A stretch of 64,000 nucleotides of DNA from Arthrobacter woluwensis. Lineage in GTDB: Bacteria > Actinomycetota > Actinomycetes > Actinomycetales > Micrococcaceae. Made by a program: the position numbers and the translations under genes. Below, piece by piece: positions 1,723 through 51,042 of the stretch (positions within the stretch are counted from its first letter, which is position 1; each line of letters starts with the position of its first letter). The notes beneath the pieces are model-generated. The model ran no database searches. It worked only from the letters and a program-made list of their open reading frames with translations, and had not been told where the DNA came from. The stretch spans positions 3,348,001-3,412,000 of the forward strand of contig NZ_JAUSXR010000001.1 of the NCBI RefSeq assembly GCF_030816155.1, given 5' to 3'.

Positions 1723-1754
1723 TGCCTGCTCGTTAAACGCCGAGTTCGGGGGTT
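1723..1754. repeat. 32-bp direct repeat, left copy
   Basis: Identical over 32 bases to 3629-3660. It begins TGCCTGCTCGTTAAACGCC and ends in the GAGTTCGGGGGTT unit of the palindrome. The two copies bracket the beta-helix gene. Confidence 0.9.
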
Positions 1755-1816
1755 TCTTTCGAAACCGTGGTCCGCAGACCACGAACCCGGAAGGAACCCC
1801 CGAACTCGGCGTTTAA
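1733..1816. repeat. Four-unit palindromic intergenic element (GAGTTCGGGG type)
   Basis: Arms at 1733-1754 and 1795-1816 are exact reverse complements. The 10-bp units are GAGTTCGGGG at 1742, GAAACCGTGG at 1761, the inverse CCACGAACCC at 1779 and the inverse CCCCGAACTC at 1798. Spacing is 19/18/19, the same layout as the other elements of this kind in the window. It lies between convergent genes. There is no T-tract, so a simple terminator is not obvious. Confidence 0.85.
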
Positions 1817-1821
1817 GGTGG

Positions 1822-3540
1822 TTACTGCTGCGAGGCTTCGATGTTCCTGAGCCGGAACTTTCCGCCTGAGGGGAGGGCCGATAGGGACAGGGACAGGACC
1901 GCATAGGTCGCCCACGGTGGAGCCGGCTGTCGCATGAGCTGCGGAAACGAGGCGTACTGCCACGATCCGTTCGTGTAGGCGAGAGCTGTGTCCGCATATT
2001 TGGTCGGGTCGATGACCTTTTTCGAGGTTCCGTAGTGGATGCGGGCCTGCACGGTTCCGGCCTGAACGGCTTGCCATTCGAAGCTGATCCTGAAGCGGGC
2101 GTTCTGCCGAATGGGGAGGAACAGCTGCGCAAGGGATGACTCCTTGACTGTCTGCGCCAGCTCGAACGCTTTAGAATCCCCGTCATCCACCACAGTGATC
2201 GAGGCGTTCGAACTGGTGAACTTCCAGTCGTCGAGAATCAGACTCGCTGTGGGAACGGGGTCATAGAGGAGGCCTTTTCCTCGCTGAACGTGCGGCCAGA
2301 ACCGAGAACTCGCATCCATCGACGTGTCCTGCACGGTCAGGGTCCCGCCTCCTGCCCCGAGGTACCCGAGAGTTTCGTCGCTGCTGGCGAAAAATCCTCC
2401 GGAGATTCTCGCGCGTTGAGCTTTGGCGGGATCGTCGTGGAAGCGGATGAAGGGAGGACCATCGACCTCCCGACCTACGCCAGTGATTTCAGGACGTTTC
2501 TTCAGTCGGAAATTCGAGTCGACGATCGACAAGTTGGCGAAAGCACCTGTCAGGTCGAACCACGGTCGGGACCTGGCATCGGGTTGACCTACGGTGCTCG
2601 CTCGCGGGACATAACCTTCCAGATGGCAGGCATGAAGGACGGCGAACCCGCCGTCAACGATGCCGATCAAAGGATCCACCGCCGTGGCGCCACCCGACGG
2701 AGCGTACGGCAATTGTGCCTCCGTGCCGTATTGGTCGAAAGAGCAGGCGATGAAGTGCGCCCCGACTTCTTTGCCGATCACGAACGCCTCCACATTGCCG
2801 GTGATATCGCAGTCCTCGAAGACGATGCGTTCTCCGGTGTCTTTCGTGCCGGTGAGGCTCCTGAGTCCGAGTTGGTTGCGCTGAATGGATGAAGAGTGGA
2901 ATCCGATCATGTAGGAGCGATCGCCCAGCTCTACTGCACAACCGAATTGAATCCAGGCTGTGTTGCGGAAAGTCAGCTGACTGGTTTTCAAGCCTCCACT
3001 GACGCCATCCCCGTCGGGGTAGGCGATCAGGATTCCCAGCGATCCTTCTCCGTTACCCCGGCTGACGACGTGTGAGAACGATGTTGCGCGATGGCGCGCC
3101 AGATACATCGGATCACTCTGGTCGACACACACCGCTCGCCATAGTGGCTTTCCCGGCTCGGAGATCTCACTCTTGATCTCGCAGTGACCTTCGATCGAGA
3201 CCCGAACATCCCACTCGAGTGTGTCGTTGATCAGGAATGAGCCTCCGGGAGCCGTCACGATCGGATATGTCTTCGCGGACGTGCCATAGCTGCCATACCC
3301 GACCGCACTTTTCGCCGCGGCCAGACAGGCCTTCCATGCGTTGGTGTCATTCTGAGCCGTGTTTCCCGTGGGGGCGCCGTAATAGTCGAACACGTTGAAC
3401 ACCAGAGACTGAGTTGTTCCATCGGCTGCAGCCGGAGACGCGGAAGTCAGCGATGTGACACCGATCAATGCCGTCACGAGGCCGCCGGAAGTAAGAAGTG
3501 CTCGGCGGGAGCGTGAATGATGGTCCCCAGAGTTATTCAT
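1822..3540 (-). CDS. Tat-exported right-handed beta-helix (pectate-lyase-like fold) protein
   Basis: A 572-residue protein. The N-terminus has a twin-arginine signal (SRSRRALLTSGG, hydrophobic stretch, ASPAAADG cleavage region), so export in folded form is expected. After about residue 45 comes FNVFDYYGAPTGN..QNDTNAW, the opening of pectate-lyase-superfamily/phage-tailspike beta-helices. Many short strands follow (IVFEDCDITGN, ARISGGFF, TLTVQDTSMD), then a C-terminal beta-sandwich-like region from about residue 430. This fold usually binds or cuts polysaccharide, but no catalytic residues can be assigned. The gene is visibly less G+C-rich than its neighbours (a sampled line is about 58 percent) and sits alone between two copies of a 32-bp repeat, suggesting acquisition. 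Start at ATG 3540 is preceded by CAGGAA. Confidence 0.8.
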   Translation of the reverse strand: MNNSGDHHSRSRRALLTSGGLVTALIGVTSLTSASPAAADGTTQSLVFNVFDYYGAPTGNTAQNDTNAWKACLAAAKSAVGYGSYGTSAKTYPIVTAPGGSFLINDTLEWDVRVSIEGHCEIKSEISEPGKPLWRAVCVDQSDPMYLARHRATSFSHVVSRGNGEGSLGILIAYPDGDGVSGGLKTSQLTFRNTAWIQFGCAVELGDRSYMIGFHSSSIQRNQLGLRSLTGTKDTGERIVFEDCDITGNVEAFVIGKEVGAHFIACSFDQYGTEAQLPYAPSGGATAVDPLIGIVDGGFAVLHACHLEGYVPRASTVGQPDARSRPWFDLTGAFANLSIVDSNFRLKKRPEITGVGREVDGPPFIRFHDDPAKAQRARISGGFFASSDETLGYLGAGGGTLTVQDTSMDASSRFWPHVQRGKGLLYDPVPTASLILDDWKFTSSNASITVVDDGDSKAFELAQTVKESSLAQLFLPIRQNARFRISFEWQAVQAGTVQARIHYGTSKKVIDPTKYADTALAYTNGSWQYASFPQLMRQPAPPWATYAVLSLSLSALPSGGKFRLRNIEASQQ

Positions 3541-3628: not shown

Positions 3629-3660
3629 TGCCTGCTCGTTAAACGCCGAGTTCGGGGGTT
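3629..3660. repeat. 32-bp direct repeat, right copy
   Basis: Perfect copy of 1723-1754. Only the left half of the palindrome is present here, as if an insertion or unequal recombination had separated the halves. It ends 17 bp from the stop of the leftward permease gene. Confidence 0.9.
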
Positions 3661-3677
3661 CGCGGTGGGGCGGTGCG

Positions 3678-20069: not shown

Positions 20070-20092
20070 CGCATTGCCCCTTCGCCCCCACC

Positions 20093-20163
20093 ATCGACTG
20101 CTCCACAGATGTCGCGTCTGAGCCCTTTCGGGGCCTCGAATGACATCCTGTGGAGCAGTCGAT
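20093..20163. repeat. 71-bp palindromic intergenic element (ATCGACTGCTCC type), copy 1
   Basis: Left arm ATCGACTGCTCCACAGATGTC and right arm 20142-20163 are complementary with one bulged base. It lies between convergent genes. The element at 50939-51008 shares the outer 12 bases and much of the interior (ATGTCG, TTTCGGGG). Confidence 0.85.
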
Positions 20164-20196
20164 GAGGGGTGGGGTCACACTCCTGGGAGGGGTGGC

Positions 20197-24570: not shown

Positions 24571-24637
24571 GAATCCGCTGCCCAGGGCGTGAGTCCGCTA
24601 CAGGATGTAGCGGACTCACGCCTCCGACAGCGGACTC
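24571..24637. repeat. Four-unit palindromic element (GAGTCCGCTA type)
   Basis: Units GAATCCGCTG at 24571, GAGTCCGCTA at 24591, inverse TAGCGGACTC at 24608 and inverse CAGCGGACTC at 24628. Spacing 20/17/20, loop CAGGATG. It lies between convergent genes and reaches into the last codon of the Lrp gene. Confidence 0.88.
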
Positions 24638-25178
24638 AGCGGAGGCCCGGCCCGCCAGGGCGTTCCGGGCGTCCTGTCGAGCCCGTGGGTCCCGCGAGTT
24701 CCGGAACCGTGGAAGTCCCCGGGTGCTGCTCGAAGATGATCTGGGTCTCCGTCCGGCCGAGGTCCGGATCGGACCCGAGATGGAGCTTGATGAAGTCGCG
24801 GAGGGCCGGCACGCTCTCACAGGCGATGTGGAGCACGAAATCGTGGTCTCCGCCGATCAAATAGATGCGCTGAACTCCGGGAATTGATCGGAGGCGGTTT
24901 GCGACGACGGGCAGGCGGTTGCGGACCGTGCTGTGCACACTGACGAAGATCATCGCCTCGACGCTGGTTCCGACCGCCTCCGGGTCGATGTCCGCGTGGT
25001 AGCCGCGGATGACCCCCGCCTCTTCGAGAGCCCGCACACGGCCGTGGCACGTGGACCGCGGAAGTCCCACCCGGGCGGAGAGCTCCTTGTTGGACAGTCG
25101 CCCGTCTCGGCTGAGTTCGGTGAGGATCCTGCGGTCCGCCGCGGAGAGCTGAATTCGGTTCACGGAACCGCCTTTCAT
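24636..25178 (-). CDS. Lrp/AsnC family transcriptional regulator
   Basis: 180 residues. The N-terminal helix-turn-helix is LSAADRRILTELSRDGRLSNKELSARVGLPRSTCHGRVRALEEAGVIRGY, the classic Lrp pattern. The C-terminal RAM/AsnC effector domain covers about residues 70-150 (MIFVSVHSTVRNRL..IPGVQRIYLIGGDHDFVLHI). The last 25 residues are a Gly/Pro-rich tail overlapping the palindromic element, so the true end may have drifted. It is divergent from kynureninase with 167 bp between the starts, and by gene position it is the likely amino-acid-responsive regulator of that gene. Confidence 0.92.
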   Translation of the reverse strand: MKGGSVNRIQLSAADRRILTELSRDGRLSNKELSARVGLPRSTCHGRVRALEEAGVIRGYHADIDPEAVGTSVEAMIFVSVHSTVRNRLPVVANRLRSIPGVQRIYLIGGDHDFVLHIACESVPALRDFIKLHLGSDPDLGRTETQIIFEQHPGTSTVPELAGPTGSTGRPERPGGPGLR

Positions 25179-27878: not shown

Positions 27879-28317
27879 CGTGCCTCCCGGAGCGTGAGTG
27901 AGGTGGACCGTGCCGGCCCGCACGACGCGGCACACCCCCAAACTACCGCGTCGTCTCTCCGGCCTGGGGCCCTTCCAAGACCTGTCGGGATTCGTCGGGG
28001 GTGGTCTGGCTCGCTGAGTCCGCTATGGATGGTGTGAGTCCGCTACACGATGTAGCGGACTCACACCATCCATAGCGGACTCAGCAGGGGGGTGAGGGCG
28101 GCCCCGGTGCCACTTCGACCCCGCCGGGGTGCCCGCCGCCGTCGTGGTCCACACCCTGGACAGCCTCACCGCACCATGTTTGACTGCAGTCAACCCGGGG
28201 AAAACCCGTCACGGACGGCGAGGCATTCCGGACCGGGGCGGGCCCTGCACGCGGCTCCGCTCGACGGCGATGATCGGAAAGGCGGCGGAACCGCATGGCT
28301 GGGGGAGTCGCACGCCG
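27879..28317. other. Intergenic region between divergent genes, with palindromes
   Basis: 439 bases without a convincing gene. It holds the four-unit element at 28016-28082 and a perfect 14-bp palindrome TTGACTGCAGTCAA at 28180-28193 that could be an operator for the flippase gene. A reading frame open from 28129 joins the flippase but lacks membrane or signal character before 28318. Confidence 0.6.
28016..28082. repeat. Four-unit palindromic element (GAGTCCGCTA type), perfect copy
   Basis: GAGTCCGCTA at 28016 and 28036, its inverse at 28053 and 28073. Spacing 20/17/20 and loop CACGATG. The 30-bp arms are fully complementary, giving a 67-bp perfect hairpin. It lies between divergent genes, so it cannot be a terminator for either. 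Confidence 0.92.
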
Positions 28318-29640
28318 ATGAACTCCCTGTTCCGAACCTCCAGCGCCGTCCTTGTCCGGGCCTTTCCCTTGATCCTGTCGGGTCTGGTTCCCCAGCTGAC
28401 GAGCCTGGTGGTGCTCACGATCAGCCGCATGTCCGGCACTCCGTCGGCCACCGCACTGCTGGGGCTCACGTCGTCCCTCACGGGGCTCGCCTTCGTGGCG
28501 ACCGTAGGGGTCTCCATCTGCACCGTGCGGGATCTGGTGCGAGCTCGGAAGCAGTCCACGACGGCGGCATCCGGCGATCCTGAGGCGGCCCGTGTGGCTC
28601 AGTCGAGTGCTGTGCAGGCCAATTGGCGCATCGCCAATTCGTTCGCGGTGTTCAGCCTCCTGCTGTCAGCGGTCTTCATCCTCATCTACTCCCGCAGCAT
28701 CCCGGAGGAGCATGCCTGGATCGTCTGGAGCTACTTTTTCTCACAGTCACTGTCCCTGCTGGTCACCCCCTACTTCGCGGTGATGAACGGCGCCTACCAG
28801 TTCGTGGATCGGAGCCGCGAGAACCTCTTCTCCTCCGCGGCCGTGGGGCTGAGTTCGGTCGGTGCTGCAGCGCTCTGTTTCCAGTTCTCCGGATCACCGT
28901 CCACGGCATTGATGGCGTTCGGGCTGTCCCAGTCCGTCATCAGCGTGGCCGTCCTCCTGATCCGGCTGACGCGACTGTCCCGGAAATTCGGAGTCGTTCC
29001 CTGGGACCTGCGCTTCGACTTCTCCGCCGGACGGATCGTCGAACGCCTGGCCGGTGCGATCGACGGCGCCGTGTTCATGACGGTCTTCCTCCTGGTCCAG
29101 ATGATCGCGACGTCGATCTCGGTGCAGACGGGCGCCGAGATCGCGCTCGCGGTCGGCGTCGCCCGCATGGTGGTGGTTCCCCTGAAGCAGGTGGGACTGA
29201 CGTACGGGCGGATGCGGATCTCGGGGCTCGTCCCGGCAGACGACGGGAAGGCCGCCTCCCTCGGCGTGCTCGCCATCTCGACATGGGCCATCGTGGTCCC
29301 GATCTGCTTGGTGATCGTCGCCGTCGGCCTGCTGGGCCGGCCCGTCGCGGGGAGCTGGACCCTGTCACTCCTGATCGTGGCGCAGTTTCTCGTGGAACCC
29401 TTCGCGGGCGTCCTCTACGGCGCACTGAAGATGACGGCCGGTCCGAAAGCCGGGCTGGTGGGACTCTTCGTCTCGTACGGTCTCGTCGCCTCAGCTGGGT
29501 TGGTCCTCCTGCAGCAGACGGCCGGCGACGCGGTGCAGTTCTGGGCGCTGCTCCTGGCGGTCCGGGTGCTGTTCGCGCTGCTGACCACTCGCGCGTGGGT
29601 GCGCTTCCGCCCCGCCGTGGAGCCCGTGACGGTCCGCTGA
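28318..29640 (+). CDS. Polysaccharide flippase-like membrane protein (MOP superfamily)
   Basis: 440 residues from ATG 28318, with GGGGGAG ten bases upstream. About twelve hydrophobic segments appear in two halves (LILSGLVPQLTSLVVLTISRM; FAVFSLLLSAVFILIYS; VFMTVFLLVQMIATSISVQ; ISTWAIVVPICLVIVAVGLLG), and the motif FAVMNGAYQFVDRSRENLFSSAAVG sits mid-protein. The pattern fits lipid-linked oligosaccharide flippases or MATE-type transporters. I cannot distinguish these. No glycosyltransferase genes are near. Its stop codon overlaps the first unit of a palindromic element. Confidence 0.7.
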   Translation: MNSLFRTSSAVLVRAFPLILSGLVPQLTSLVVLTISRMSGTPSATALLGLTSSLTGLAFVATVGVSICTVRDLVRARKQSTTAASGDPEAARVAQSSAVQANWRIANSFAVFSLLLSAVFILIYSRSIPEEHAWIVWSYFFSQSLSLLVTPYFAVMNGAYQFVDRSRENLFSSAAVGLSSVGAAALCFQFSGSPSTALMAFGLSQSVISVAVLLIRLTRLSRKFGVVPWDLRFDFSAGRIVERLAGAIDGAVFMTVFLLVQMIATSISVQTGAEIALAVGVARMVVVPLKQVGLTYGRMRISGLVPADDGKAASLGVLAISTWAIVVPICLVIVAVGLLGRPVAGSWTLSLLIVAQFLVEPFAGVLYGALKMTAGPKAGLVGLFVSYGLVASAGLVLLQQTAGDAVQFWALLLAVRVLFALLTTRAWVRFRPAVEPVTVR

Positions 29641-29736
29641 ACTCGCTAGGGACGGTTCGAGCTCGCTACCCGCGACAGCGAAGTCGGCCCCTGCGTAGCG
29701 AGTTCAGCCGGGTTCCGCGCCCTCGATAGCGAGTTC
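29639..29736. repeat. Five-unit palindromic element (GAACTCGCTA type)
   Basis: GAACTCGCTA at 29639, GAGCTCGCTA at 29659, inverse-type CAGCGAAGTC at 29676, TAGCGAGTTC at 29696 and a further TAGCGAGTTC at 29727. The first four again show 20/17/20 spacing. It lies between the convergent flippase and LacI genes. Confidence 0.8.
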
Positions 29737-35555: not shown

Positions 35556-38500
35556 ATGCATGACGACATCAACCTGACCACCGGACGGGTCAAGCGGGTT
35601 CTGGCCGAGCGGCTGTATCCCGCCGTCTACGAGGAGAGCGTGGCGCTGGACGTCGCCTGGCACGAACTGCCGGGCGAGCCGATCGCCCCCGCCGAGGGCC
35701 TGGCCCTCGAGTACTCGCCGTACCAGGTGGGAACCCCGTGGGGCGCCGCCTGGGGCACCACCTGGTTCCGTCTGCAGGGCCGGATCCCCGAGGGGTGGGC
35801 CGGACGCCGCGTCGAGATGGTGGTGGACCTCGGCTTCGATGTGAACATGACGGGATTCCAGTGCGAAGGCCTGGTCTACGCGCCCGAGGGCGAGCCGCTG
35901 AAGTCGCTCAACCCGCGCAACCAGTGGGTCCTGGTGGCTGACGAAGCGCAGGGCGGGGAGACCGTGGAGCTCTTCATCGAGGCCGCGTCCAACCCGGTGC
36001 TCCTGGATTACCACCCCTTCCTTCCCACGCAGGAGGGCGACATCCGCACCTCCTCGCCGAAGAAGCTCTACACCACGCGCCGCATGGACCTGGCCGTGTT
36101 CAACCGCGAGGTCCACGAACTGTGCCTGGACCTGGAGGTCCTGTTCGAGCTCCAGGCCGAGCTGCCGGAGTCCTCGCCGCGCCGGATGCGCATCCTCCAG
36201 GGTCTGGACGACGCCCTGGACCGCGTCGACCTCCAGCGCATCGCCGAGACCGTGGGGGAGGCCCGCGAGGTCCTCGCGCCGCTGCTCGAGCGTCCCGCCG
36301 AGGCCAGCGCCCACCACGTCTCCGCCATCGGCCACGCGCACATCGACTCCGCCTGGCTATGGCCTCTGCGCGAGACCATTCGCAAGGTGGCCCGCACCAG
36401 CTCCTCCATGACCGAGCTGATCGGGCAGGACCCGGACTTCCGGTACGGCATGTCCAGCGCGCAGCAGTACAAGTGGCTCAAGGTCCACCGGCCCGAGGTG
36501 TACGCCAAGGTCAAGGCCGCCGTCGCCGAGGGCCGTTTCGTGCCGCTGGGCGGCATGTGGGTCGAGTCGGACACGGTCATGCCCAGCGGCGAGGCCCTGT
36601 CCCGCCAGTTCCTGTACGGCCAGTCGTTCTTCCGGGACGAGTTCGGCGCGGCCTGCCGCGGAGTGTGGCTGCCGGACAGCTTCGGCTATTCGCCGGCCCT
36701 GCCGCAGCTCATGCGCCGCGCCGGTTTCGAGTGGTTCTTCACCCAGAAGATCTCCTGGAACCAGGTCAACAAGTTCCCGCACCACACGTTCAACTGGGAA
36801 GGCATCGACGGCTCCCGGGTCTTCAGCCACTTCCCGCCCATGGACACCTACAACGCGCAGCTCTCCGGCGAGGAGATGGCCCGCGCCAGCCGCCAGTTCC
36901 GCGAGGCCCGCGTCGCCTCCGGGTCGATCGCGCCGGTCGGCTGGGGCGACGGCGGTGGCGGCACCACCCGCGAGATGACCGGCAAAGCCCGGCGTCTCGC
37001 GGACCTGGAAGGCAGCGCCACGGTCCGCTGGGAGAACCCGGACGACTACTTCGAGCGCGCCCGCGCCGAGATGCCGAAGCCCCCGGTCTGGGTCGGTGAG
37101 CTGTACCTGGAACTCCACCGGGCCACCCTCACGAGCCAGCACAAGACCAAGCAGGGCAACCGCCGCGTGGAGCACCTGCTGGTGGAGGCCGAGCTGTGGA
37201 GCGCCACGGCCGCGGCCCGCACCGGCTACGCGTACCCCTATGACGAACTGAACGCACTGTGGGAGGACCTCCTGCTGCACCAGTTCCACGACATCCTGCC
37301 CGGCACCTCCATCGCCTGGGTGCACCGCGAGGCCGTCGAGACCTACCGCCGCCTCACGGAGGAGGCCGAGGCCCTGATCGGCCGCGCCCTGGACGCCCTG
37401 GCCGGCGACGGCGACGTGCAGCTCACGTTCAACGCGGCGCCGTTCGGCCGCTCCGGCGTGCCCGCGCTGGGCGCCTCCGAGGCTGCCCCGCGCGGCGCCG
37501 AGCCGGTGACCGTGAGCGAGGAGGCGCGCGGCGTCGTGCTCCGCAATGGACTGGTGGAGGTCGTCATCAGCCGTGAAGGCCACGTCGTCTCCGCGGTGGA
37601 CCTGGCCAGCGGGCGCGACGCGATCCCCGCGGGCGCCGAGGCGAACGTGCTCCAGCTGCACCAGGACTTCCCGAACATGTGGGACGCCTGGGACGTGGAC
37701 CGGTACTACCGCAACCGCGTGACCGAGCTGCGTTCACTGACGTCGTTCTCCGTGGAGGGCGACGGGGACGAGGCGCGGGTCGTGATCGAGCGCGAGTTCT
37801 CCGGGTCCCGGGTCCGTCAGGTGCTGCGCCTGGCCGCGGATGCGCGCACGCTGCGGATCGATCAGGAGACCGACTGGCACGAGGCCGAGAAGTTCCTCAA
37901 GGTGTCCTTCCCGCTGGACGTCCGCGCGGAGCACACGGCCGCGGAGACGCAGTTCGGCTTCAACAAGCGCGTCACGCACACCAACACGAGCTGGGAGGCG
38001 GCGAAGTTCGAGACGTCCATGCACCGCTTCGTGCTGGCGGAGGAGCCCGGCTTCGGCGCGGCCCTGGTGACGGAGTCCAGTTACGGCTTCGACATGACCC
38101 GCGACGCTGACGACGACGCCGGCGTGACCACCACCCTGCGCCTCTCCCTCCTCCGGGCTCCGCGGTTCCCCGACCCGGAGACGGACCAGGGCGTGCACCA
38201 GCACTCCTACGGCCTCGTGATCGGGGCCGACGCCCTGGTGGCGACCCGTGAGGGCATCCACCTGAACAGCCCGGTCCGTTCGCGGTCCGGCGCCGCTCCG
38301 GTCGAGTCCCTCGTGCGGGTCGACGGCGATGGCGTGCTCGTCTCCTCGGTGAAGCTCGCCCACGACCGCTCCGGCGACCTGGTGGTCCGCGTCTACGAGC
38401 CGCAGGGCCACCGCGCGAACGCCGTGCTGCACGTCGACCCGGCGTTCGGCGCCGGCCGCGAGGTCAGCCTGATCGAGGACGAGCTCCCCGGACGCCCCGG

Positions 38501-38622
38501 CCCTGGAGGCGGCCGGCGCCGGCTCCGGTGGCGAGGGCGCGACGGCGGAGGCCGGCGTCGCGCTGTCCCTGTCGCCGTTCTCGGTGCGCACGTTCCGGTT
38601 CAGCCCGGCGCAGGTGGGCTAG
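35556..38622 (+). pseudogene. GH38 alpha-mannosidase; C-terminal frame broken by one extra base
   Basis: From ATG 35556 the frame is a clear GH38 enzyme: VSAIGHAHIDSAWLWPLRETIRK (metal-binding His-x-Asp), GVWLPDSFGYSPALPQLMRRAGFEWFFTQK (nucleophile Asp in LPDSFGY) and LLLHQFHDILPGTSI. It also has the C-terminal beta domains of class II mannosidases. At 38490-38491 one extra G moves translation out of frame. The alternative frame then gives ALEAAGAGSGG and SLSPFSVRTFRFSPAQVG with stop 38620-38622, a natural GH38 ending. The corrected length is 1021 residues. Uncorrected, the frame runs on through palindromic repeats to 39323. The break affects only the last 45 residues, so activity may survive. 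No signal peptide, so cytoplasmic removal of alpha-mannose. Confidence 0.85.
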
Positions 38623-38647
38623 GCGGGTTAGGCAGGTCTCCTCGCCC

Positions 38648-38712
38648 GAGTTCGTGGGTTTCGGGTGAGTTCGTGGACCATCTCCACGAACTCGCCTCGA
38701 AACCACGAACTC
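38648..38712. repeat. Four-unit palindromic element (GAGTTCGTGG type)
   Basis: GAGTTCGTGG at 38648 and 38667, inverse CCACGAACTC at 38684 and 38703. Spacing 19/17/19, loop ACCATCT. First of four elements in this interval. Confidence 0.88.
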
Positions 38713-38787
38713 GGCAGGGGGCGGGGGCTGGTACAGAGCAGGGGCCGGTGCGGGCTGCCTGGCTCCGTGAGACCGTGGGTTTCCGTC

Positions 38788-38853
38788 GAGTTCGGGGGTT
38801 CGTTCCGGCGTCGTGGGTTGCGGGGGGTGTTCTCGGCACGGACCCCCGAACTC
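38788..38853. repeat. Palindromic element with eroded core (GAGTTCGGGG type)
   Basis: Outer units GAGTTCGGGG at 38788 and inverse CCCCGAACTC at 38844, the same outer units and 56-bp spacing as the element at 1742-1807. The inner pair has diverged. Confidence 0.75.
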
Positions 38854-38933
38854 GGCAGGGGTGGCCCCGAGTGGACCCGCCCCACACCCACCTGGCTTCG
38901 TCGCTCGGGCTTGTCTGGCCAGCCGTTATTCGT

Positions 38934-38998
38934 GAAACCGTGGGTTTCCGTCGAAACAGTGCATTAACCACACTGTTTCGACGGAAACTCGCGGTTTC
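38934..38998. repeat. Four-unit palindromic element (GAAACCGTGG/GAAACAGTGC type)
   Basis: GAAACCGTGG at 38934, GAAACAGTGC at 38953, inverse ACACTGTTTC at 38970 and TCGCGGTTTC at 38989. Spacing 19/17/19. It mixes the inner unit seen at 1761 with the unit of the element at 44540. Confidence 0.82.
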
Positions 38999-39079
38999 GG
39001 CGTTTCCGGGGCCCTCGCGGACGGGTGGGAAGCGGGTCGGGAGCGCGATCCGGAGTGGCTTTGGCGGTGCTCGTCCGTC

Positions 39080-39144
39080 GAGTTCGTGGGTTTCGGGTGA
39101 ATTCGTGGATTATTTCCACGAACTCGCCTCGAAACCACGAACTC
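39080..39144. repeat. Four-unit palindromic element (GAGTTCGTGG type), second copy
   Basis: GAGTTCGTGG at 39080, GAATTCGTGG at 39099, inverse CCACGAACTC at 39116 and 39135. Spacing 19/17/19, loop ATTATTT. Nearly the same sequence as 38648-38712. Confidence 0.88.
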
Positions 39145-39274
39145 GGCAGGGGTGGCCCCGAGTGGACCCGCCCCACCCTCGCCTCGGCCCCGGTGCACCA
39201 ACGCGTTTTCCGGGCCGATCGCCACTCCACACCCGCCCGTTTCTGCTGGACCCACACCCACCTACGCCCCCGGA

Positions 39275-39308
39275 TTGTTCAACAAAGCCTTGCCGGATTG
39301 TTGAACAA
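39275..39308 (+). promoter_or_regulatory. Paired GntR/FCD-type operator before the 5-oxoproline operon
   Basis: Two 11-bp palindromes, TTGTTCAACAA at 39275-39285 and TTGTTGAACAA at 39298-39308, with centres 23 bp apart (about two helical turns). Each sits in a longer direct repeat beginning CCGGATTGTT. Both fit the TNGTNNNACNA pattern of FadR/GntR-type regulators. The likely ligand is the GntR protein encoded at 44658-45338. Confidence 0.7.
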
Positions 39309-39392
39309 AGTTTTATGATGTGAGTCACGTGGTCCCGTGATGGGCGCCACGGACAGCTCCTGGACCGGTCGGTCCCCGTGGAATGGACTCGC

Positions 39393-44539: not shown

Positions 44540-44604
44540 GAAACAGTGAGTTCGCGACGAAACAGTGATCAGAACACGCTGTTTCATCGCGAACTCACTG
44601 TTTC
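44540..44604. repeat. Four-unit palindromic element (GAAACAGTGA type)
   Basis: GAAACAGTGA at 44540 and 44559, inverse ACGCTGTTTC at 44576 and TCACTGTTTC at 44595. Spacing 19/17/19, loop TCAGAAC. It lies between two codirectional genes. Confidence 0.88.
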
Positions 44605-45388: not shown

Positions 45389-45455
45389 CAGTCCGCTAGG
45401 AGGGACGTGAATCCGCTACATCTCGTAGCGGATTCACGCCGCAGTCAGCGGACTC
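45389..45455. repeat. Four-unit palindromic element (GAGTCCGCTA type), third copy
   Basis: CAGTCCGCTA at 45389, GAATCCGCTA at 45409, inverse TAGCGGATTC at 45426 and CAGCGGACTC at 45446. Spacing 20/17/20, loop CATCTCG. It lies between convergent genes. Confidence 0.88.
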
Positions 45456-50898: not shown

Positions 50899-50938
50899 GT
50901 ACATGAGGAGTGGCCGGTCTCACGGTCACGCCCTCCCT

Positions 50939-51008
50939 ATCGACTGCTCCATACGATGTCGTTCTGGGCCGGATTTCGGGGATTTCGGCATCCTATGGAG
51001 CAGTCGAT
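50939..51008. repeat. 70-bp palindromic intergenic element (ATCGACTGCTCC type), copy 2
   Basis: Left arm ATCGACTGCTCCATACGATG and right arm 50989-51008 match in 19 of 20 paired positions. It shares outer arms and interior words with 20093-20163, 31 kb away. Confidence 0.88.
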
Positions 51009-51042
51009 GAGGGGGCGCGACGACGGCGGCGGGCCGGGCGCC

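Follow-up and report, generated by a model that had tools for sequence, protein, structure and literature searches.

The window analysed here, a 64-kb stretch of the 3.51-Mb genome of Arthrobacter woluwensis (G000), carries ten palindromic elements (Table 1). Their core geometry consists of four units in the order + + - -, spaced 19-20 bp apart within an element of 65-67 bp. Nine of them had been listed as intergenic elements in an earlier note on this DNA, and all nine were recovered where it had placed them. With 30-bp arms and loops of 3-11 nt, the top eight hairpins of the window are eight of these nine elements (24-30 of 30 pairs); the ninth, 29639, has 23 of 30 pairs, as does one intragenic stretch. 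Two first-order Markov shuffles of the window yielded one and zero hairpins with at least 22 pairs. The copy at 28016, previously credited with 30-bp arms, is indeed a perfect palindrome, and its arms reach 35 nt when extended. Element ends mostly read GCYGA...TCRGC, both in the window copies and in alignment A2. Variable unit sequences around a fixed geometry were borne out, with unit types that differ by genome, and units also vary within one element. The earlier description needs correcting here: outer and inner units are not always alike (they differ in 1742 and in G028), and the spacers pair too, less well than the outer units. Arm mismatches reach 18-38% in the spacers, compared with 2-7% in most outer-unit columns.

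Table 1. Palindromic elements and an extra unit in the 64-kb window
Feature	Position	Strand	Remarks
Element, outer units S5 (GAGTTCGGGG), inner S3-like	1742..1807	.	Inner part inverted, G001 vs G003; element of different type at G002 orthologous site
Element, S1 (GAGTCCGCTA)	24571..24637	.	Element end is the stop codon of minus-strand gene 24636-25178
Element, S1, perfect palindrome	28016..28082	.	Between divergent genes; no element at G003 orthologous site
Element, S2 (GAACTCGCTA)	29639..29705	.	Left-edge TGA terminates plus-strand gene 28129-29640
Extra S2 unit (TAGCGAGTTC) outside core	29727..29736	-	31 bp past last core unit, same orientation
Element, S4 (GAGTTCGTGG), array member 1/4	38648..38712	.	
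Tenth element, S5, degenerate; missing from the earlier list	38788..38853	.	
Element, S3 (GAAACCGTG/GAAACAGTG), array member 3/4	38934..38998	.	
Element, S4, array member 4/4	39080..39144	.	One element here in G003 and G002; four in G001
Element, S3	44540..44604	.	Type unchanged at orthologous site in G001, G003 and G002
Element, S1	45389..45455	.	S2-like element at G002 orthologous site

Other features of the window adjoin or resemble the elements. The open reading frame of a GH38 mannosidase (35556-39323) extends across the element array; since the codon periodicity of substitutions is lost after ~38400, the gene probably stops short of 38648, in a different frame. On the minus strand, a 572-aa open reading frame (1822-3540) without matches in Pfam, NCBIfam or PADLOC belongs to a ~1.9-kb stretch that is found only in G000 and is missing from G001, G003 and G002. 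This stretch is bounded by element 1742 and by a repeat of that element's left flank and first unit (~3633-3670). A second long-hairpin family (ATCGACTGCTCCA...), present at 20087-20169 and 50932-51015 and in further copies elsewhere in G000, is possibly one more flavour of the same kind.

A covariance model (R1) built from the nine window elements gave 116 strand matches in G000 at E ≤ 10, corresponding to at least 60 distinct places down to an E value of ~0.01. This count of 60 leaves out strand duplicates and three matches above ~E 0.01, and it rests on the scoring of 150 out of 1,168 initial candidates. Recurrence at about 60 places amounts to a genome-wide excess over chance, and spacing does not vary freely between copies, both as the earlier note had anticipated. 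By their outer units, the G000 elements divide into types S1 (GAGTCCGCTA, 14 elements), S2 (GAACTCGCTA, 10), S3 (GAAACAGTG, 13), S4 (GAGTTCGTGG, 17) and S5 (GAGTTCGGGG, 6). Unit spacing in 16 other genomes of the order is 19 bp in 58 of 62 elements; three of the remaining four were called as 21, due to an overlapping GATAG match, and one as 18. Extra units in the orientation of the adjacent arm also occur outside the core, and 16 of the 24 listed within 60 bp sit at 19-20 or 29-31 bp, with orthologs and array copies each entering the count separately (the remainder lie at 12-59 bp). Those in other genomes form runs at 19 bp, with copies at 21-22 and 30-32 bp, and one G000 copy (L051, 3826-3926) is ~20 bp longer and contains extra units. 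Distances of about 20 and 30 bp fit proteins arranged on one face of the helix and are not needed by a hairpin as such. Unit spacing thus lends support to one alternative in the earlier note, that a protein may read the half-sites. Tandem runs of units with a 19-bp period give palindromes of at least five units in L217 (G100) and L152 (Arthrobacter sp. MYb23).

The elements are unevenly placed along the chromosome. The region 1.2-2.45 Mb of G000, a third of the chromosome, holds 3 of the 60 (binomial p = 3.6e-8, with bounds picked post hoc); by eye, among the matches listed, G001 and G003 look similar and G028 does not. GC content at the G000 contig ends (L043, L044) is ~61%, compared with 66-71% in the other loci read, and we read these ends as foreign or misjoined DNA.

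Beyond G000, R1 found many copies in three congeneric species and in one other genus, and few elsewhere; in distant copies the geometry is unchanged and the units are different. A second model (R2), built from 41 copies in nine genomes, matched 67 of 297 genomes of the order, representing 32 of 95 genera and ten families, some of these genomes with a single match; up to 16 candidates were scored per genome, so its copy numbers are lower bounds. In a phylum-wide sample it matched 3 of 296 genomes: that of the window, one more of the order, and one outside it. Genomes with elements include Cellulomonas sp. BIN39 and Arthrobacter sp. MYb23. G180 contains 59 occurrences of GAGNTMG-N12-GAGNTMG and 2 of the reversed pattern, and 52 of the 59 form 26 opposed pairs; the corresponding counts in G238 are 38 and 4. 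Over nine unit positions, agreement is 6.8 between outer and inner units of one element, 6.6 between different elements of one genome, and 4.8 between genomes. The elements belong to a large superfamily of rapidly changing repeats that occurs in an actinobacterial order, most likely Actinomycetales/Micrococcales.

Comparison of orthologous sites reveals both constraint and turnover. Across 42 same-type orthologous pairs (those pairable one-to-one among 55 same-type rows, with a few added by hand), there are 0 indels in 2,772 bp of element, compared with 69 in 4,528 bp of flank, and substitutions are ~3 times rarer in elements than in flanks. The absence of indels is partly ascertainment, because elements broken by an indel could escape the model. 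Unit type changes in place: it differs from that of G000 at 4 of 37 mapped elements in G001, 3 of 21 in G003 and 5 of 9 in G002. Four sites carry S4 in G000 and S3 in G001 (and in G003 where examined); their aligned flank parts are 87-96% identical, with the bases next to the element often diverged. In the contiguous block around the window, where the aligned parts of G002 and G000 are 76-85% identical, five G000 sites have collinear flanks in G002; every one of them is occupied by an element there, three times of another type. Co-occupancy is biased, since the G000 loci were chosen for carrying elements and the G002 loci outside the block are best-scoring matches; the less biased figures are those of the block itself, with all five sites occupied and five of the six G002 elements lying at such sites. 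These alignments indicate that the element sites are older than their contents.

Among the 23 S3 copies of G002, loops are similar (mostly around GTTTAAAC) and two copies match on average at 60.7 of 65 bases, while three same-type G000 orthologs share 50, 53 and 59. Since loops and spacers are alike, and not units alone, this points to copying, and the G002 S3 copies show concerted evolution, homogenised within one species. Elements or their inner parts have also been flipped in place between close relatives, the reverse orientation fitting better at 8 of 40 pairs and by at least 5 bases at 5 of 40. The earlier note had suggested a search for empty sites between strains, and presence/absence differences were indeed found among close relatives. 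G003 lacks element 28016, and the scar there is compatible with a deletion between CTC repeats. Short direct repeats border two empty alleles in all (CTC at 28016 and 8 bp at 3446886), a configuration that fits insertion and deletion alike. For target-site duplication around the 60 G000 elements, no length or offset exceeded the maximum of shuffled flanks.

We considered whether the elements act in RNA, as bidirectional transcription terminators or as hairpins protecting 3' ends, a reading that we regard as very unlikely. It would be consistent with their gene context, as determined with a home-made gene caller: of 54 classified elements, 23 lie between convergent and 7 between divergent genes, compared with 37 and 57 of 208 control gaps of at least 100 bp in the same loci. 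Six elements inside a called gene were excluded from this test, four of them being the array inside an over-long open reading frame, and at least one element, 24571, was called codirectional despite codon periodicity that shows convergent genes. The earlier statement that both orientations occur stands; it holds unevenly, with convergent gaps enriched and divergent ones depleted. Elements are also often near stop codons, and pairing of the arms is kept through two-sided changes, as seen in the outer pairs and in a count of 30 double changes compared with 10 in shuffles, the latter excess being partly due to inversions. However, a hairpin needs neither direct repeats at 19-20 bp within each arm nor spaced extra units. 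At codirectional sites, G-T mismatches on the sense strand show no clear excess over A-C (32 vs 26, p = 0.5; 51 vs 32, p = 0.048, when the array and two further embedded copies are added). The 20-nt flanks of the nine listed window copies contain no T-tract, as reported previously, and one site has, by eye, its own terminator-like hairpin just upstream. Rfam returned no match above the gathering score in the window, and an Rfam RNA family was rejected on this ground.

A protein partner emerged from pairs of elements ~1.0-1.25 kb apart, which recur in several genomes. We compared the open frames between 11 element pairs, 0.6-1.25 kb apart, and found that four intervals (in G000, G028, G176 and G123) contain homologous genes (blastp E values down to 1.9e-51), while the rest hold different genes. 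A family profile of 13 sequences (A4) identified more copies between elements in G000, G001, G002, G003 and G027, and one next to an element in G226. In its N-terminal part the protein matches AbiEi models weakly, and an AbiEi structure as well; the C-terminal part is a nuclease of the Vsr/I-Bth0305I catalytic fold. AbiEi is a protein that binds inverted repeats; I-Bth0305I is a homing endonuclease of phage origin. Relatives of the nuclease family were found in 253 of the 297 sampled genomes by A4 profile search, as well as in Oerskovia and Litorihabitans; within the window, no copy was detected.

We examined 49 best-scoring genes of this family, comprising the best locus of each of 30 genomes and 19 others down to the same rank. 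R2 elements lie within ~250 bp of the gene at 18 of the first 30 loci, on both sides in 12; the sole R2 match farther away is the second copy of an array in one locus. A sequence-free detector (30-bp arms, at least 21 pairs) found hairpins 13 times more densely at the ends of the nuclease genes (74 in 30.4 kb) than in the rest of the loci (29 in 159.6 kb), which is largely coding, so that gene ends elsewhere make the better control. The gene-end hairpins contain a direct repeat at offset 19 in 54 of 74 cases and at offset 20 in 14, with 1-5 cases at other offsets; among the other hairpins the counts are 10 and 2 of 29. When the repeat is required, 25 of the 49 nuclease genes have palindromes on both sides and 15 on one side, 40 in all. 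Controls gave 6 of 320 (both sides) and 69 of 320 (one side) for called genes in G000 loci that had been picked for their elements, and 1 and 11 of 50 for genes of the window, with Fisher p values for both-sided flanking of 7e-20 and 6e-9, respectively. Three of the profile seeds came from element pairs, and a fourth is probably the G291 gene; without all four, at least 21 of 45 genes are still flanked on both sides. The nuclease loci also supplied new units (GAAGTAGAACG, GAGTGGGTGCG, GTTTCGACG and CGAGAGAGTCT), most of which keep the 19-20 bp frame. Between the left and right copies of a gene, the median agreement is 24 of 28 bases, a figure obtained without a control.

Other candidates for a partner fell away. 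The earlier note had pointed to a RAYT-like transposase with matching ends, and none was found: Y1_Tnp (PF01797) was absent from 13 and then 20 further genomes (0 of 33, 29 of them with elements), while 5 of 14 control genomes were positive, and a RAYT/Y1 transposase was rejected as partner. The associate is instead the AbiEi-like protein with its Vsr-fold nuclease domain. DUF559 (PF04480) was first set aside and later revived through the family's own profile. Integron-like cassettes were dropped, as the neighbours look like ordinary chromosomal genes. Insertion sequences with half-elements at their ends were also rejected, no two-unit pair being seen to frame a transposase in the unannotated neighbourhoods of G180 and G238.

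Unit type and protein type go together at several loci. Within the genus of the window, the S2 nuclease gene lies between S2 elements in G000 (where one is the longer copy), G001 and G003; the S3 gene lies between S3 elements in G001, G002 and G003; and the S5 gene lies between S5 elements in G001 and G003. The G000 copy of the S3 gene is broken across two frames, and of the two elements beside it one is now of type S4; in G000 the S5 gene is missing together with both elements at their place, where the flanks are 92-95% identical. No S1 or S4 nuclease was found among the loci examined, which covered three of the seven G000 profile matches. A unit could be read at 45 of 56 loci, and over these its similarity correlates with N-terminal identity (rho = 0.24, a value reached by 0 of 500 permutations), compared with a rho of 0.09 for the C-terminal, nuclease part (41 of 500 as high). 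Unit type tracks the N-terminal part and does not clearly track the nuclease part.

Two further G000 loci deserve mention. A distant nuclease paralog (L336:6101-7294, G000 ~3420100-3421293), 8-9 kb beyond the window, lies beside a CCCACGG...CCGTGGG hairpin, and its relatives in the matching region of G002 and G003 adjoin hairpins of other sequence; on this basis, other hairpin families may be further flavours. At G000 3193834-3197286 (L040:7995-11447), a Wadjet JetC gene (PADLOC E value 0) lies between elements at 3193752 and 3197379.

A different role for the protein would be that of an AbiEi-like autoregulator, for which the palindromes at its own gene are operators and the dispersed copies are decoy, regulatory or architectural sites, the nuclease having another job such as phage defence. 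The AbiEi-like fold, the fixed spacing with conserved units, and the spaced extra units all agree with such a role. We nevertheless consider it unlikely, as palindromes occur on both sides of the gene, and hence downstream too, in 25 of 49 loci, few dispersed elements lie between divergent genes (7 of 54), and the G002 copies are alike in loops and spacers, which argues for copying.

Alternatively, the elements could be ordinary non-autonomous mobile repeats served by a transposase yet to be recognised, with nuclease genes as frequent passengers between two copies. Dispersed copies, arrays and presence/absence differences among close relatives would all be expected of such repeats, and other genes do lie between element pairs: a LacI-like regulator in G180 (by eye), an aldo/keto reductase in G027, and globin, TPR and GntR genes in G000. 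Yet it is a single protein family that recurs between pairs across several genera, and unit type tracks the N-terminal part of this same nuclease; together with the lack of a genome-wide signal of target-site duplication, these observations make passengers a quite improbable explanation. When 528 called genes near elements were compared all against all, three clusters were present in at least three genomes, one of aldo/keto reductases and two larger ones resembling common transporter and reductase families. The nuclease was not among them, probably because the gene caller passed over it.

We judge it probable that the elements form a dispersed, mostly gene-free palindrome superfamily that is paired with proteins combining an AbiEi-like part and a Vsr-fold nuclease, in an arrangement like that of REPINs and RAYTs, with replacement driven by the nuclease. 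We propose that the N-terminal part would recognise units lying on one face of the DNA at a distance of two or three helical turns, and that the nuclease would cut in or close to elements or insertion points. If another copy then served as template for repair, elements could spread or be overwritten through gene conversion, leaving no target-site duplication. A unit type would in this view be a small selfish population that has an enzyme of its own and is tolerated chiefly at the ends of genes. Such a cycle of binding, cutting and overwriting would explain the constraint on units and spacing and the lack of a target-site duplication signal, as well as in-place replacement, inversion, homogenisation, and enzyme genes framed by their own elements.

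More tentatively, this may be a new selfish system, in which proteins of the homing-endonuclease type spread short phased palindromes, rather than an intron, through cutting and repair-templated overwriting, in which flavours compete within one genome, and in which the N-terminal part and the units diversify jointly. If true, it would provide a natural library of DNA-recognition domains with readable targets. The nuclease family is common, and through its pairing with palindromes its targets become readable in genome sequence; recognition becomes testable, as the protein often adjoins its presumed site and many flavours exist. The pairing also suggests that dispersed palindromic repeats arose in bacteria by a second route with no relation to RAYTs.

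Full-text searches of open-licence PMC articles turned up no paper recognisable as a description of the elements or of their pairing, and nothing on an AbiEi-like/nuclease fusion with repeats. The elements do share features with several known systems. Like MITEs and insertion sequences, they are short inverted-repeat elements, and a gene can be flanked by similar ends; unlike them, they show no genome-wide signal of target-site duplication, and each of the ends is a palindrome in its own right. In its N-terminal fold the protein resembles AbiEi antitoxins of type IV toxin-antitoxin systems, from which it differs in its fused nuclease domain. Free-standing homing endonucleases of the I-Bth0305I type share the Vsr-like catalytic fold of its C-terminal domain, whereas the N-terminal part described here is AbiEi-like, each genome carries many dispersed palindromes, and no intron was seen in the loci read here. 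Of homing itself we see indirect signs only, namely replacement and the presence or absence of whole units.

The closest comparison is with REP/REPIN-RAYT systems, with features as described for REPINs (PMC3116915) and for the genomic context of REPs (PMC3733652). The elements described here differ in having four units, ends without the GTAG/CGTC tag, and no Y1/HUH enzyme in 33 genomes, 29 of which bear elements; the enzyme instead has a Vsr-like nuclease fold. Of the earlier suggestion of a REP/MITE-like mobile hairpin, the link to REP/RAYT fails, and the diverging subfamilies that spread and replace each other remain. Shared by both systems are dispersed intergenic palindromes, genome-specific sequence types, arrays, conserved ends and spacer length, and an enzyme gene near or between the repeats. 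As with RAYTs, the enzyme gene is flanked by copies of the palindrome, in 25 of 49 loci, with an enzyme of another class; the system would thus work like REPINs and RAYTs, with an enzyme of the homing-endonuclease type.
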